A stretch of 64,000 bases of DNA from Pedobacter psychrodurus (GTDB lineage Bacteria; Bacteroidota; Bacteroidia; Sphingobacteriales; Sphingobacteriaceae): assembly GCF_004331735.1 (NCBI RefSeq), contig NZ_SJSO01000004.1:1-64000 (forward strand), given 5' to 3'. The position numbers and the translations under genes were made by a program. Each line of letters starts with the position of its first letter. Position 1 is the first letter of the stretch. Under the pieces are notes generated by a model. That model did no database searches. It worked only from the letters and a program-made list of their open reading frames with translations, and was not told the DNA's origin. Shown in pieces: positions 23,263-45,376 of the stretch.

Positions 23263-23811
23263 ATGAAAATCTACACTAAAACAGGCGATAAGGGCCAAAC
23301 ATCACTCATTGGAGGTACCCGTGTGCCTAAATACCACTTACGTATCGAAACCTATGGAACTGTTGACGAATTAAATTCGTACATCGGATTAATTATGTGT
23401 CAAGATATTGATGCGCATGACCAGAAACTATTAAAAGAAATTCAGGATAGGTTATTTACTATCGGCTCATCGCTTGCAGCCGACCCTGAAACATCTAAAA
23501 TGAAGATCCCTGATCTGCACGATGCTGATGTTATCTTGTTGGAAAATGAGATGGATCTGATGAACGAAAAGCTACCGCCTTTAAAACATTTTGTTTTGCC
23601 TGGTGGAAATACTGTAGTTTCTTACTGCCATATTGCACGATGTGTTTGCAGAAGGGCAGAACGCCTGACAGTAGCGCTTGCAGATAATAGCTTTGTAGAT
23701 GAGCGTGTAACAGTTTATTTGAATCGGTTAAGCGATTATTTATTCGTTTTGGCACGAAAACTGACCGTCTATTTCAGCGCGGAAGAAAACATTTGGATTC
23801 CGCGGATTTAA
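23263..23811 (+). CDS. Cob(I)alamin adenosyltransferase, PduO type
   Basis: 182 aa. It starts with KIYTKTGDKGQTSLIGG, the ATP-binding signature of PduO-type enzymes, and contains YGTVDELNSYIG and later CRRAERLTVAL with VYLNRLSDYLF. It transfers adenosyl from ATP to reduced cobalamin, making adenosylcobalamin. Start chosen at the ATG directly after the hairpin repeat; the family signature begins at residue 2. The product is the cofactor that a CarH-like regulator elsewhere in the window would bind. Confidence 0.95.
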   Translation: MKIYTKTGDKGQTSLIGGTRVPKYHLRIETYGTVDELNSYIGLIMCQDIDAHDQKLLKEIQDRLFTIGSSLAADPETSKMKIPDLHDADVILLENEMDLMNEKLPPLKHFVLPGGNTVVSYCHIARCVCRRAERLTVALADNSFVDERVTVYLNRLSDYLFVLARKLTVYFSAEENIWIPRI

Positions 23812-40328: not shown

Positions 40329-41234
40329 ATGACTTACTCTATTTCAGATCTTGAACAGCTTTCGGGCATTCATTCTCATACTATCAGGATCTGGGAGCAG
40401 CGGTATAATGCGCTGAGTCCGATGCGATCGCAAGGTAATACCCGTTTATATGACGATAAGCAGCTCACAAAACTATTAAACATTGTAAGTTTAAATAAAA
40501 GCGGCTTAAAAATTTCTAAAATTTGCAGTCTTTCAGATGAGGCGATTGATAAACTTCTCGATCAGCAGTTTTCTTATTCATCTGATGATGAGCAAGCTGA
40601 CTATTATATTTCACAACTTATCCGGCATGGTTTAGCTTTCGATGACCACTCTTTTAATCATTTAATTGATCAAAGCATTGATAAGTTAGGGCTTTCTGAT
40701 TGCTATCGGAAAATTATGTATCCACTATTGGTTCGTTTGGGATTAATGTGGCGAAAAGACGATATTTGTCCTGCTCACGAGCATTTTTTATCAAATATTA
40801 TCCGTCAAAAAATATTTGTCCATATCAACAATCTTCCGTTAACAAGGCATTCTGGTGAAAGCTGGCTTCTTTTTTTGCCAGAAGATGAGGAACACGATAT
40901 TGGGCTGCTTTTTGCCAGTTATATGCTGAGGCTACATCATCATCAAGTTATTTTTTTAGGCAGCAAGGTTCCATTGGATTCAATAAAGCGAGTATTTTCG
41001 ACATTAAATGTGAACCATGTTTTACTTTTTATGATAAAATCGAGATTAGCGCCTGCGGCACAGAAATTCATAGATCAACTGTCCGAAATATGTTCATCCA
41101 GCAAAATCCATCTTGCCGGAAATAGCCAGGTTATCGGTAAACTAAACAATATCAATCACATCAACTGGTTTAAAACGCTCGATGAATTTGAAAAAACAAT
41201 ACAATATCCAGTTTTACATGAAAGAAATTTTTGA
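40329..41234 (+). CDS. CarH-like MerR regulator with cobalamin-binding domain
   Basis: 301 aa. Winged-helix MerR DNA-binding domain (1-~70) with SGIHSHTIRIWEQRYNALSP and RLYDD. The C-terminal part (~90-290) is a B12-binding module: the helix bundle has Trp141, then nine residues, then Glu151-His152 (the W-x9-EH signature of adenosylcobalamin-using CarH), and His189 in DEEHDIGLL is the candidate lower-axial ligand. Such proteins repress carotenoid genes in the dark and release DNA in light. The residue after Trp141 is Arg, not the His that forms the bis-His adduct in Thermus CarH. It overlaps crtB by 17 bases. Confidence 0.88.
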   Translation: MTYSISDLEQLSGIHSHTIRIWEQRYNALSPMRSQGNTRLYDDKQLTKLLNIVSLNKSGLKISKICSLSDEAIDKLLDQQFSYSSDDEQADYYISQLIRHGLAFDDHSFNHLIDQSIDKLGLSDCYRKIMYPLLVRLGLMWRKDDICPAHEHFLSNIIRQKIFVHINNLPLTRHSGESWLLFLPEDEEHDIGLLFASYMLRLHHHQVIFLGSKVPLDSIKRVFSTLNVNHVLLFMIKSRLAPAAQKFIDQLSEICSSSKIHLAGNSQVIGKLNNINHINWFKTLDEFEKTIQYPVLHERNF

Positions 41235-42054
41235 TCAACTATCTGCCGATTGTAGTCGGCTTACCACTAAGTTGTATAGTACTAGCTTTTCTTATGGTAT
41301 TTATTTTCTTGGTAAAGAACTACGCCAACCCATACATGCTATTTATGGATTTGTGCGTTTAGCGGATGAAATTGTAGATAGTTTCCATCATTATGACAAG
41401 AAATTTTTATTAGATAAATTTAAACTGGATACCTTCGAAGCCCTTAACTTGGGCATTAGTTTAAACCCCATCTTAAATTCATTTCAAAAGGTCGTAAATC
41501 AATACCAGATAGATCAGGAGCTGATTGTTCTTTTTCTGAGGAGTATGGAGATGGATCTTTCGACACAAAAATATACTCCCGAACTTTATAACGATTATAT
41601 TTTAGGCTCTGCAGAAGTGGTAGGGTTGATGTGCTTAAAAGTTTTTACCCATGGTAGCACTGCAGATTACGAACAATTGAAACCTTACGCCATGAAATTG
41701 GGTTCTGCATTTCAAAAGGTTAATTTTTTGAGGGATGTTAAGGCTGATCATCAAACGCTTAATCGAAATTATTTCCCTAATGTTAATTTAGCCCTATTCT
41801 GCGATCATCAAAAAAAAGAAATCGAAAAAGAAATCGAAGCAGAATTCGCAATGGCATTAACTGGTATTAAGCAGTTGCCTACAGGTTCTAGAAATGGCGT
41901 ATATTTGTCCTATATCTATTACAAAAAATTATTCGCAAAGATTAAGCGTTTAAGTGCTGAAAAAATTATGACTGAAAGGATAAGGATTTCGAACACGCAT
42001 AAAGTTGGTTTGATGTTCGATTCGATTATCCGTAATAAGTTAAATGTAATTTAA
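41218..42054 (+). CDS. crtB: Phytoene/squalene synthase family protein
   Basis: 278 aa from the ATG at 41218, which keeps the overlap with the regulator short (17 bases); an ATG 36 bases upstream is possible. Prenyl-diphosphate binding motifs: RLADEIVD (~50-57) and RDVKAD (~170), with FQKVNFLRD. It condenses two geranylgeranyl diphosphates to phytoene, the first carotenoid step. The gene ends and idi begins without a gap. No crtI follows, so the rest of the pathway lies elsewhere. Confidence 0.92.
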   Translation: MKEIFDQLSADCSRLTTKLYSTSFSYGIYFLGKELRQPIHAIYGFVRLADEIVDSFHHYDKKFLLDKFKLDTFEALNLGISLNPILNSFQKVVNQYQIDQELIVLFLRSMEMDLSTQKYTPELYNDYILGSAEVVGLMCLKVFTHGSTADYEQLKPYAMKLGSAFQKVNFLRDVKADHQTLNRNYFPNVNLALFCDHQKKEIEKEIEAEFAMALTGIKQLPTGSRNGVYLSYIYYKKLFAKIKRLSAEKIMTERIRISNTHKVGLMFDSIIRNKLNVI

Positions 42055-42597
42055 ATGGAAGAGCAAGTTATTCTGGTTGATGAGGAGGATATACCGAAAG
42101 GGCAGATGGATAAAATGGAAGCACATGAAAAAGGTGCATTACACCGTGCCTTTTCCGTTTTTATTTTTAATTCTAAACGCGAACTGTTGCTGCAACAAAG
42201 AGCAATGAGCAAATATCATTCTGCAGGCTTATGGACGAATACCTGCTGTAGTCATCCTCGGATTGGAGAAAGTAATATCAACGCAGCAAGAAGGAGATTG
42301 ATGGAGGAAATGGGGATGGGTTGCGAATTGAACTATTTGTTTAAATTTACCTACAAAGCAATATTTGAAGATGGCTTAACGGAACACGAGGTAGACCATG
42401 TTTTTTTTGGCATGAGTGATGAATTACCTATTATAAACTATGAAGAAGTAGAAACCTTTAAGTATATGGATTTGGAAGCGTTAACACAAGATATTGCTGT
42501 TAATCCAGGTGCCTATACTCCATGGTTAAGAATTTGTTTAGATAAAGTTGTAGCGCATGCATCCACTGCTAAAACAAAAAACGGGCATACAGCCTAA
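42055..42597 (+). CDS. idi: Isopentenyl-diphosphate delta-isomerase, type 1
   Basis: 180 aa Nudix-fold enzyme. Signature segments: LLLQQRAMSKYHSAGLWTNT, CCSHPRIGE with the catalytic Cys, and RRLMEEMGMG with the metal-binding Glu; the second Glu lies in EHEVDHVFFG. It interconverts IPP and DMAPP. The start codon follows the crtB stop immediately, so it belongs to the same operon and boosts precursor supply for carotenoids. Confidence 0.95.
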   Translation: MEEQVILVDEEDIPKGQMDKMEAHEKGALHRAFSVFIFNSKRELLLQQRAMSKYHSAGLWTNTCCSHPRIGESNINAARRRLMEEMGMGCELNYLFKFTYKAIFEDGLTEHEVDHVFFGMSDELPIINYEEVETFKYMDLEALTQDIAVNPGAYTPWLRICLDKVVAHASTAKTKNGHTA

Positions 42598-42890
42598 GCC
42601 ATATACCCGTATCTAAATTAACGCTCTCGAGGACAAATATAGGACTAGTTTGCAAAATTCCTAAAAGTTTAACAATTCTTTTACTTTAAGATTATAGTTC
42701 TTAGTTTGGATTTATGCTGATCTGAAAATTAAGATATTAATATATAGATATTTATAAGTTTGGACAGAAATAAACACTAAAAAATATTTTTTTCAGAGTC
42801 ATATCATTTTTGATATTTCATACAGTTGTAAGCTTGTCGATCTGTTTTTATCCACTTCTTTTTTCTCGATCACACAGCACTTCTGTGATA

Positions 42891-43094
42891 TTATTCTTCC
42901 GCTAATTTCTGGAATTTAAATTTATCTTTAATGTGGCGGTTAAAATATCTTCCTTTCGATCCGGAAGCCTTTAACATTTTATAAATCCGTTCAGGAACAT
43001 TTTTATACAGATAAATCATTTCGGTTATAAAGATGATTTTCAATGTTTCAGAAGCAACATCATAACTAAAGTATTTGATCACTGATGATGGCAT
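42891..43094 (-). CDS. KTSC domain protein
   Basis: 67 aa. SSVIKYFSYDVASETLKIIF, YLYKNVPERIYKML and SKGRYFNRHIKDKF match the short KTSC domain found alone or in phage and tRNA-synthetase-like contexts. Function unknown. It is followed on the same strand (reading left) by no other gene before idi; the 290-base gap to idi shows nothing I recognise. Confidence 0.85.
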   Translation of the reverse strand: MPSSVIKYFSYDVASETLKIIFITEMIYLYKNVPERIYKMLKASGSKGRYFNRHIKDKFKFQKLAEE

Positions 43095-43138
43095 AATATC
43101 AGATTATACCCTAAAAACAGTTGCCATTACAAATGGTT

Positions 43139-43528
43139 TCAATCGTTTTTGAGTGCTGCTTCTTCTTCCTGAACTTTAATCTTTTCCTTTTTAAGATCAA
43201 TACGGATAATGTTATATAAGCTCATATAAACATTTGCAACCCATACTATAGAAAAAAAAGAAATAATATAACCACGCTAATCTGGATAAATTAACATGAA
43301 TTTTGTAATAAATAGTAGGATTATGGCTACATAATGACTAAAGCAGTATTCGCATGTAAATACATAAAAAAACTTTCTTTTCGCCAGCCGATTGCAGTTT
43401 TTAGAACGGTTTATACAGAATTCACGTGCCTCTTTGAAAATTTCTTCTTTAGTAACTGTCCAGGCTATGCAAGCTATTGGCAAAGCCATAATAAAGAGGT
43501 AATAGATGTGTGTTTCCATAGCAATCAA
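43139..43528 (-). pseudogene. Membrane protein gene interrupted by one in-frame TAG
   Basis: The frame opens with METHIYYLFIMALPIACIAW (second ATG, ending at 43519; first at 43528), contains FTCEYCFSHYVAIILLF and stops at a TAG at 43277-43279. Translation beyond that stop continues in the same frame for 45 codons as RGYIISFFSIVWVANVYMSL and a charged tail KKEKIKVQEEEAALKND to a TGA at 43139-43141. So a ~128-residue protein with two membrane segments is cut by a single nonsense codon. Function unknown; the CEYC motif may bind a metal. Confidence 0.75.
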
Positions 43529-43630
43529 ATCAGGATATAATTACAACCTTAAACCCTTGAAAATGTTTATTAAGCGATAAACATTTTGATTACATTTATG
43601 TTAATTAACATATCGCTAATTATTTATTTT

Positions 43631-43819
43631 ATGGAAAGATCAGAAATCATATCTCTACTTGAGGTAATCAATCAACAGGTGAGCTCTTCGATTTTAGGTG
43701 GGATGGAAGAAGAGTATGAAGAATTAGAGAGCATGGGCCTAATTAAAATTAACCGAGATTCGGTACAATGGTCATCTGCTATGACGCCTGCAGGAAATGC
43801 TTATTTGGGGCATGATTAG
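43631..43819 (+). CDS. Hypothetical protein, 62 aa
   Basis: Chosen start at the ATG at 43631 (MERSEIISLLEVINQQ). The extra 15 residues of an earlier start are hydrophobic and look like translated promoter DNA. The acidic middle (GGMEEEYEELESMGLIK) may be a short winged-helix or helical hairpin; LTPAG-like MTPAGNAYL near the end resembles wing sequences. No family recognised. Confidence 0.55.
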   Translation: MERSEIISLLEVINQQVSSSILGGMEEEYEELESMGLIKINRDSVQWSSAMTPAGNAYLGHD

Positions 43820-44044
43820 ACCAGATTGCAATGTTTTAACCACAGAGGACGCAGAGTGAAGAGCACGGAGATCACAAAGCTGCCAGTGGCTGTCCATACT
43901 GGAAAAGGTTTAACCACGAAGATTCACAAAGAAAAATTCCAGAGAAAGCAGAGTACAATCGGTTTGTCAGTCTGAGGAATAATTTATTGTATAAATCAAT
44001 TTAAATGACAAGGTGATTTTAAGAGATGATAATCCTCGATGAAT

Positions 44045-44114
44045 CGTCATTCCCAACTTGATTGGGAATCGTAATGCCATAAGCTTTAAGATTCCCGCCT
44101 GCGCGGGAAAGACG
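44045..44114. repeat. Palindromic REP-like element, copy 2
   Basis: CGTCATTCCCAACTTGATTG and the closing CCCGCCTGCGCGGGAAAGACG-type arm form the same two-hairpin layout as 32273-32359 but in the opposite order. The inner strings GGGAATC and GATTCCC are shared. Confidence 0.8.
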
Positions 44115-44302
44115 CCGTTCATTGAAATCTGTGGATGGTAGCGTAGTCGAAAGCTCTTAGATACGTAGATTTATTATTGACCATATAAGAAATATAAGGT
44201 CATGTAAGGTTGTGTGTTCTTGTATGGTTTAAAATGATTTGGAATTCGTTCAATTTATATTTAATATCAAGATTATTAAGAATTTGATTCTTCAAGCCAT
44301 AT

Positions 44303-44395
44303 AGCCCTGATGGAAATGGAAATCCCTTTTGGGCGGCCGTTAAATTTTCTTATTTCGGGAGTTTAACCAAAAGGATTGAAATGGACAGCAGGACT
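44303..44395 (+). ncRNA. Structured RNA candidate (Flavo-1-like)
   Basis: AGCCCTG (44303-44309) pairs with CAGGACT (44389-44395) except one position, and AATCCCTTTTGG (44321-44332) pairs with CCAAAAGGATT (44367-44377). Between the stems, symmetrical GGAAATGGA and TGAAATGGACA strings form an internal loop. The wording (AGCCC..GATGG..ATCC..GGAC-AGCAGGA) is like the Flavo-1 motif of Bacteroidota as I remember it. No covariance test was possible. Function of the class is unknown. Confidence 0.5.
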
Positions 44396-44563
44396 GAACC
44401 CTTCCTAATGGTACTGGCGTTGCGCTTCAAAAAAAATAACTACCTATTTTAACGATTAATCAGTAGAACCCCATCAGGATCTTTACGACTAAACTTTGAC
44501 CAATTTATTGTTGGAATTCTGCTAAATTTGCAGCAAGTTTAGAATTGTGCCTAAATAAAATAA

Positions 44564-45376
44564 ATGGCCATTCTATCTGCAGATATGAACGATTTACAAC
44601 TTAGAACAGTAAATGTAACCAGATACGTTACGCCATTACGCGAGGGTGGCTCTATGCCCGCTATTGCTGAGGCTGATGATAATTTTTTATATGTACTGAA
44701 ATTTAGAGGGGCAGGACAAGGTAGCCGGGCTTTAATTGCAGAACTAATTGGGGGTGAAATAGCCCGCTATTTAGGCTTGCGTGTGCCTGAACTCGTTTTT
44801 GCCAATTTAGATGAAGCTTTTGGAAGAACAGAACCCGATGAAGAAATCCAGGATCTGCTAAAAGCCAGCGTAGGCTTAAATTTGGCATTACACTATTTAT
44901 CCGGAGCGATAACATTCGACCCTACAGTAACTACTGTTGATGCTAAACTTGCTTCGCAGATTGTATGGCTTGATTGTTTTTTAACTAATATGGACCGTAC
45001 CTGCAGGAACACCAATATGTTGTTGTGGCATAAAGAGCTTTGGTTAATCGACCATGGTGCTGCATTATACTTTCATCATTCTTGGCAGAATTGGGAAGAA
45101 CAAGCAATTAAACCTTTCTTTTTGGTTAAAGATCATGTATTGTTACCATGGGCTACTGAACTAGAAAGCGTGCATGAAGAATTTAGTAAACTACTTAGCC
45201 CGGAGAAGATCCAATCTGTAATTAATTTAATTCCTGATGACTGGTTGGAAGGCGAAACGAACTTTGAAAGCAAAGCGGAGCACCGTAATGCCTACACACA
45301 TTTTCTTACTACCCGATTAACTCATTCAACTATATTTTTAAAAGAAGCACAGCATGCAAGGGAAATTCTTATTTGA
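44564..45376 (+). CDS. HipA-like kinase (HipA_2 family)
   Basis: 270 aa (263 if the second ATG at 44585, which fits the family start better, is used). LRTVNVTRYVTPLREGGSMP and YVLKFRGAGQGSRALIAE form the N-terminal lobe; the catalytic loop is FLTNMDRTCRNTNML (~149-163) with Asp and Asn, and IDHGAALYFHH provides the metal-binding Asp. It is shorter than HipA toxins (~440 aa) and lacks the N-subdomain. Its end overlaps the DUF3037 gene by 23 bases. The pair recurs in bacteria, but its role is not established. Confidence 0.88.
   Translation: MAILSADMNDLQLRTVNVTRYVTPLREGGSMPAIAEADDNFLYVLKFRGAGQGSRALIAELIGGEIARYLGLRVPELVFANLDEAFGRTEPDEEIQDLLKASVGLNLALHYLSGAITFDPTVTTVDAKLASQIVWLDCFLTNMDRTCRNTNMLLWHKELWLIDHGAALYFHHSWQNWEEQAIKPFFLVKDHVLLPWATELESVHEEFSKLLSPEKIQSVINLIPDDWLEGETNFESKAEHRNAYTHFLTTRLTHSTIFLKEAQHAREILI

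Follow-up and report, generated by a model that had tools for sequence, protein, structure and literature searches.

A CarH-like regulator and a conserved candidate operator at a compact crtB-idi operon of Pedobacter psychrodurus

Pedobacter psychrodurus is a soil bacterium with a gene for a CarH-like regulator directly ahead of two carotenoid genes, crtB and idi. CarH serves as a model for B12-based photoreception and as a tool in optogenetics; it is known mainly from proteins that have a bis-His light state and direct-repeat operators. The locus raises the question of whether its regulator works as a B12-dependent light switch, and of what such a switch would control in an operon that contains no crtI. 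The DNA analyzed, here called the window, is a stretch of 64,000 nucleotides (positions 1 to 64,000 of contig NZ_SJSO01000004.1, assembly GCF_004331735.1; C34 in this analysis) from a genome of 6.09 Mb.

The operon proposed in an earlier note on this DNA is real: three plus-strand open reading frames are present, and their Pfam domains agree with the proposed genes (Table 1). The regulator matches MerR_1 (3.3e-14) and B12-binding_2 (9.4e-07), and its nearest named relatives are Pedobacter proteins of up to 93% identity. The longest open reading frame of crtB spans 41182-42054 on the plus strand; ATG 41218 is the probable start because it yields 278 amino acids, the commonest length among CrtB homologues. 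From this codon the regulator gene overlaps crtB by 17 nt, versus 53 nt from 41182. The note had all the genes joined by overlaps, which holds for this junction (with 17 nt the likely extent) and fails for the next: in translation, the TAA of crtB is followed by the ATG of idi, and the two genes abut. The CrtB protein falls under every NCBIfam cut-off. Its top model is HpnD (92.7 bits versus a cut-off of 278.6), ahead of the CrtB models, which score it at 65.5 bits or less; its role as a phytoene synthase is therefore taken from its neighbors in full operons. Several relatives have an Fpg-like (H2TH) gene 3' of idi (L054:9531-10268); a tblastn search of positions 42001-44800 of the window found none.

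Table 1. Features of the operon and its surroundings, in window coordinates
Feature	Position	Strand	Basis
Candidate operator, inverted repeat TTTGTTTAA-N16-TTAAACAAA	40292..40325	.	Unique exact match; conserved at named loci
CarH-like MerR/B12-binding regulator, 301 aa	40329..41234	+	Pfam; TtCarH sequence match; model and fold match; motif residues
crtB, probable phytoene synthase, 278 aa from likely start	41218..42054	+	SQS_PSY; homologue length; tree
idi, isopentenyl-diphosphate delta-isomerase type 1, 180 aa	42055..42597	+	NUDIX; TIGR02150 and NF002995 above cut-off
PduO-type cobalamin adenosyltransferase, possible AdoCbl supplier, unlinked to operon	23263..23811	+	PF01923

The regulator and its putative cobalamin site

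Among PDB sequences, the regulator matches CarH of Thermus thermophilus (TtCarH) with an E value of 3.2e-14. The AlphaFold model of the protein (mean pLDDT 85.8, pTM 0.75) has TtCarH 5c8e_A as its top fold match in the PDB (E 1.5e-14). Over the whole chain the TM score is about 0.6 and the rmsd is large, and the domain arrangement in the model is therefore not fixed; entries for the cobalamin-binding domain of TtCarH match the model with target TM scores of about 0.73-0.83. The DNA-recognition motif (R20-I-W-E-Q-R-Y26) differs from RxWERRY by one substitution. Translation confirms the residues that the earlier note had named alongside the MerR and B12-binding domains: W141, E151, and H152 form Wx9EH, and H189, flanked by E187 and G192 in a D/ExHx2G/P motif, is the axial His. 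Conservation of these positions among 73 named relatives is nearly complete (W141, E151, and H152 in 73/73; H189 in 72/73). In the part of PMC9304148 consulted here, an intact Wx9EH is what distinguishes CarH from CarA, and the classic B12 motif is given as D/ExHx2G/P-x41-SxT/V-x22-27-GG. The regulator departs from the second half of this motif. The x41 spacing is exact, with F234-M235-I236 in the place of SxT/V, and A263-G264 stands at a fitting distance in the place of GG.

The regulator is a CarH homologue that probably works like CarH, as the sequence match, the predicted fold, and the intact Wx9EH and ExHx2G motifs together suggest. It is not classed as a strict CarH because it lacks SxT/V and GG and scores far under the equivalog cut-off of the NCBIfam CarH model NF052513 (85.3 bits versus 400). 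The earlier note was also right that an Arg (R142) follows Trp141 where Thermus has a His. This residue does not set the regulator apart: a His after the Trp occurs in 0/137 CarH-like sequences, a set that includes the window's own and counts some genomes twice (127 sequences once near-identical ones are merged). Many CarH proteins, though not all, have this His according to the section of PMC9304148 consulted. The extract of PMC10442372 used here describes the second His following the Trp as important for light release in Thermus; the TtCarH variant H132A binds AdoCbl as a dark tetramer and mostly stays tetrameric in light. The same extract cites an earlier report, contrary to its own result, of H132A disassembly in light.

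Of the 137 CarH-like sequences, 81 have F234 with neither Ser nor Thr at 233, and 42 have Ser/Thr at 233; the four relatives from Verrucomicrobia retain both the Ser and GG. In a FastTree phylogeny, the F234 group and six Flavobacteriia-type loci stand apart from other Bacteroidota, a grouping with weak support (0.26) in which distant outgroup rows join the F234 group. Going by known B12 folds, the position of F234 is presumably the site of the cobalamin tail, and a Phe there may disturb that site.

A supply of AdoCbl is plausible. The PduO-type adenosyltransferase, which the earlier note had put forward as the supplier, is indeed in the window, about 16.5 kb from the operon, and is the single PF01923 match in the genome; it has another likely client in methylmalonyl-CoA mutase, which is encoded at two places in the genome. 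CbiC, the sole synthesis marker searched, was not found in the genome and was present in 7/14 control genomes. B12 is therefore probably imported, and AdoCbl probably made from the imported form.

The palindrome upstream of the regulator

Alignment of the regions upstream of the regulator from 15 genomes reveals a palindrome before the start codon; in the window it ends 3 nt 5' of that codon. The pattern TTTGTYTAR-N13-20-YTARACAAA has exactly this one place in the whole 6.09-Mb genome, and a reversed control pattern has none. Across 145 genomes of the genus, the exact site (gap 15-18) occurs in 64 and the reversed control in 13; the site occurs in 0/20 genus genomes that have no CarH-like match. 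The 75 matches listed for the genus (in 63 genomes) were judged against regulator places, 73 of clade A and 13 others: 61 are directly upstream of a CarH-like gene, seven just behind one, and seven elsewhere (one of the last, in G011, among genes unrelated to carotenoids). Counting exact matches only, the site directly upstream is missing in 22/73 clade-A genus genomes.

At the named loci, mismatches were allowed. These are the 73 loci with a regulator open reading frame (a 74th, L197, has none and was left out); their gene order is carH-crtB-idi at 37, crtI first (carH-crtI) at 29, and another at seven. A site with up to two mismatches, a gap of 15-18, and a distance of up to 110 nt is found at 64/73 (37/37, 26/29, and 1/7 by type), and in 57/64 it ends 14 nt or less from the matched start. 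Restricting the gap to 16-17 and the distance to 100 nt leaves 55/73, where dinucleotide shuffles predict 0.18. One of the full operons (G016) has no site with up to two mismatches. The arms of the palindrome change together: by hand count, the 75 genus matches listed divide into 60 T/A, 11 C/G, and four mixed (Fisher p 1e-9, ignoring relatedness). This co-variation rests on the genus list because the arms hardly vary at the named loci (T/A 61, T/G 1, C/G 1, A/A 1). The site is not phylum-wide. In a search of genomes drawn evenly across the phylum, 6/30 loci (the best matches) have it no more than 200 nt away, and the locus in the window is among the six; two of the sites lie more than 100 nt away at loci without recognized crt genes.

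Each half of the palindrome holds TnnACA (as TAAACA or TAGACA) in inverted orientation. Known CarH operators are described, in the passages of PMC9304148 consulted, as tandem 11-bp direct repeats, nnnnTnnACAn, with the half-site TnnACA; the same passages state that the repeats at the Myxococcus xanthus promoter were first described as inverted and later read as direct. Read by eye as a direct repeat, the window site matches TnnACA at only 2/4 and 3/4 positions, 11 and 22 bp before its right half, so that it may still be a direct repeat. In some genomes the palindrome occurs twice. In L201, L218, G109, G122, G123, G143, and G155, the CarH-like gene has an exact site on either side, the two being about 1 kb apart, and in L201 and L218 the second precedes crtI; in G049 and G017 the second of the sites is located between carH and crtI.

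The displaced carotenoid genes

The absence of crtI that the earlier note had remarked on is true of the operon and not of the genome: the organism does not lack the gene, as a 493-aa CrtI is encoded on another contig (G000:C18). The search for crtI, crtY, and crtZ that the note had suggested thus yields a cluster elsewhere. There, crtI adjoins a divergent pair consisting of a 207-aa gene with no Pfam match and a PF18916 lycopene cyclase gene of the CrtYcd type; an ECF sigma gene belongs to the same cluster, and a crtZ-like FA_hydroxylase gene lies further on. A second CrtI-family gene (L053:9961-11436, on contig C11) scores 333 bits, above the TIGR02734 cut-off, and is located directly 3' of a 567-aa gene.

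The split arrangement, with carH-crtB-idi at one place, is common to many Pedobacter. The split-type crtI lineage is present in 12/41 genomes searched, the window's included, at 78-100% identity, and 11/12 of these have carH-crtB-idi at a separate place. The twelfth, G005 (L113), has a split-type crtI/crtYcd cluster and no CarH-like match. Four genomes of the same genus (G002, G013, G019, G016) have the full order carH-crtI-crtB-hyp-idi-crtZ-crtYcd; in a fifth, G017, the operon is similar and its CarH-like gene more distant, and still other Pedobacter crt operons (G006, G018, G023, G024, G012, G022) have no adjoining CarH-like gene. The trees of the two enzymes disagree. The CrtB proteins of the split clade group with those of the Pedobacter operons (99% SH-aLRT), and split-clade CrtI takes a different position, closest to G025 and G028. 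An AU test, which used a quick tree and a group named after the tree was seen, rejects a constraint that unites split-clade and Pedobacter-operon CrtI (p about 1e-54). The favored reading of the compact operon is therefore that of a full operon from which the other genes have gone, in genomes where a crtI of another lineage is present elsewhere.

The displaced cluster has no copy of the candidate operator above chance level. Its 20-kb stretch (L052) holds no match with fewer than three mismatches, so that an exact operator at these genes is rejected; matches with up to four mismatches number 38, versus a mean of 28 in single-base shuffles. A scan of ten relatives gave two sites with two mismatches, both taken as chance: one about 0.4 kb upstream of crtI (L108) and one with a 19-base gap inside crtI (L103). 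The ECF sigma gene that neighbors the displaced crtI (L052:11373-11903) has kept the left arm alone, TTTGTTT, in its upstream region in 10/10 aligned genomes.

Proposed control of the operon and comparison with known systems

On balance, the evidence leans toward an autoregulated dark repressor of the CarH family, probably dependent on AdoCbl, that gates crtB-idi. In the dark, with AdoCbl, the protein would oligomerize and occupy the inverted repeat before the start codon, and the occupied repeat would keep carH-crtB-idi shut off. Light or a lack of B12 would free the regulator from the site; IPP isomerase and phytoene synthase would then be made and would feed C40 carotenoids. The displaced genes on the other contig (crtI of another lineage, the cyclase, and the crtZ-like gene), which have no operator, would perform the later steps. 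With only the entry genes under the operator, control would rest at the entry to the pathway, and flux into C40 carotenoids would be set at Idi and CrtB. This reading draws on the match to CarH by sequence and fold, the kept motifs, the uniqueness and conservation of the site, the agreement of its halves with TnnACA, the displaced cluster with no site above chance and its differing CrtI lineage, the presence of PduO and the mutase, and the failure to find CbiC in the genome. Against it count the missing SxT/V and GG, the missing second His, the low score for the CarH model, the 22/73 clade-A genomes with no exact upstream site, and the occurrence of the reversed control in 13/145 genomes.

Three other explanations deserve weighing. 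The Rossmann domain may have lost productive cobalamin binding, with another signal or a partner protein releasing a B12-independent repressor from the same site. The replacement of SxT/V and GG by F234 and AG is in keeping with this, and a precedent is found in the consulted part of PMC9758184, which portrays class II LitR proteins as devoid of B12 binding and PmlR2 as the effector of a LOV protein. However, nearly all relatives retain the Trp and Glu that contact the adenosyl group as well as the axial His, a pattern in line with selection for AdoCbl, and the intact Wx9EH points to CarH, not CarA, by the criterion in the portion of PMC9304148 cited above; a loss of B12 dependence is unlikely, though not far-fetched. 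Slightly less probable again is a wider regulon, in which weaker or half sites, or the ECF factor, would extend the same control to displaced genes (those for CrtI, the cyclase, or the ECF sigma factor). The conserved TTTGTTT upstream of the ECF gene would fit, as would the full site that precedes an ECF gene of 62% identity in another genome of the genus (G051, L202) and an ECF-like gene directly 3' of the CarH-like gene in six class relatives; the single exact site in the genome and the counts of degenerate matches in the displaced cluster, given above, argue the other way.

Finally, the palindrome might be a promoter element and no operator at all, since it is AT-rich and lies immediately ahead of the start codon. 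A general promoter would be expected at more than one place, whereas the exact copy is unique in the genome; it is absent from 20/20 genomes without the regulator, and its arms change together among the 75 matches listed. A pure promoter element is thus very improbable.

The repressor reading looks like an altered version of the known B12 light switch rather than a new type of system. A more far-reaching proposal, put forward only tentatively and doubtful as it stands, is that a Bacteroidota clade of CarH-like proteins forms a distinct type of B12 light switch. Such proteins would keep the adenosyl and axial contacts, have a reshaped nucleotide-tail site (F234, AG), perhaps suited to another cobamide or to a different tail geometry, and no bis-His light state, bind two inverted TnnACA half-sites at a spacing of 24-25 bp, and in many Pedobacter gate only crtB-idi. 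If the inverted half-sites are bound, the oligomer would have to present its DNA-binding domains in opposite orientation. A literature search judged by titles, abstract starts, and passages, which left many journals uncovered, found no study of a Bacteroidota CarH/LitR. A group with no second His, an altered tail site, and an inverted site ahead of its gene would put to the test which elements of the CarH photocycle are indispensable, and a single well-marked promoter is available for such tests; the split operon suggests that, in nature, light control has narrowed to the pathway entry.

A second Pedobacter lineage of CarH-like proteins, 34-39% identical, occurs in a different setting (L070:3485-12237). 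By Pfam, for L070 only, its gene is flanked by photolyase/cryptochrome and SDR genes on one side and 2-oxoglutarate dehydrogenase E1/E2 genes on the other; gene order and sizes are repeated in L037, L038, L040-L042, L068, and L069. This protein may be a light-responsive regulator of DNA repair.

The closest known system is CarH/LitR of T. thermophilus (5c8d, 5c8e, 3whp), the best PDB match by both sequence and fold, with which the regulator shares a MerR helix-turn-helix, a helical bundle with Wx9EH, and a Rossmann fold with the axial-His motif. It differs in having Arg for His132, and F234 and AG for SxT/V and GG; the candidate operator is inverted, in contrast to the three 11-bp direct repeats given for TtCarH in the consulted part of PMC9304148. 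CarA and CarH of M. xanthus are likewise MerR/B12-type repressors over carotenoid genes, and their promoter, like the site here, has been described with inverted repeats (PMC9304148, same part). CarA, as portrayed there, lacks the Trp of Wx9EH and acts without B12; its profile (Trp missing, classic B12 motif kept) differs from that of the regulator, where the Trp is present and the second half of the motif is changed. Class II LitR proteins (Pseudomonas PplR/PmlR) share the MerR helix-turn-helix and the helical B12-binding_2 domain; they are reported, in the excerpt of PMC9758184 consulted, with the helical B12-binding domain only, whereas here a Rossmann fold is predicted and the axial His is kept. 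Within the genus, the full Pedobacter operon (G002, G013, G019, G016) has a regulator 48-56% identical, related crtB and idi genes, and, in three of the four cases, the same candidate operator; unlike the operon in the window, it also contains hyp, crtZ, crtYcd, and a crtI of another lineage.
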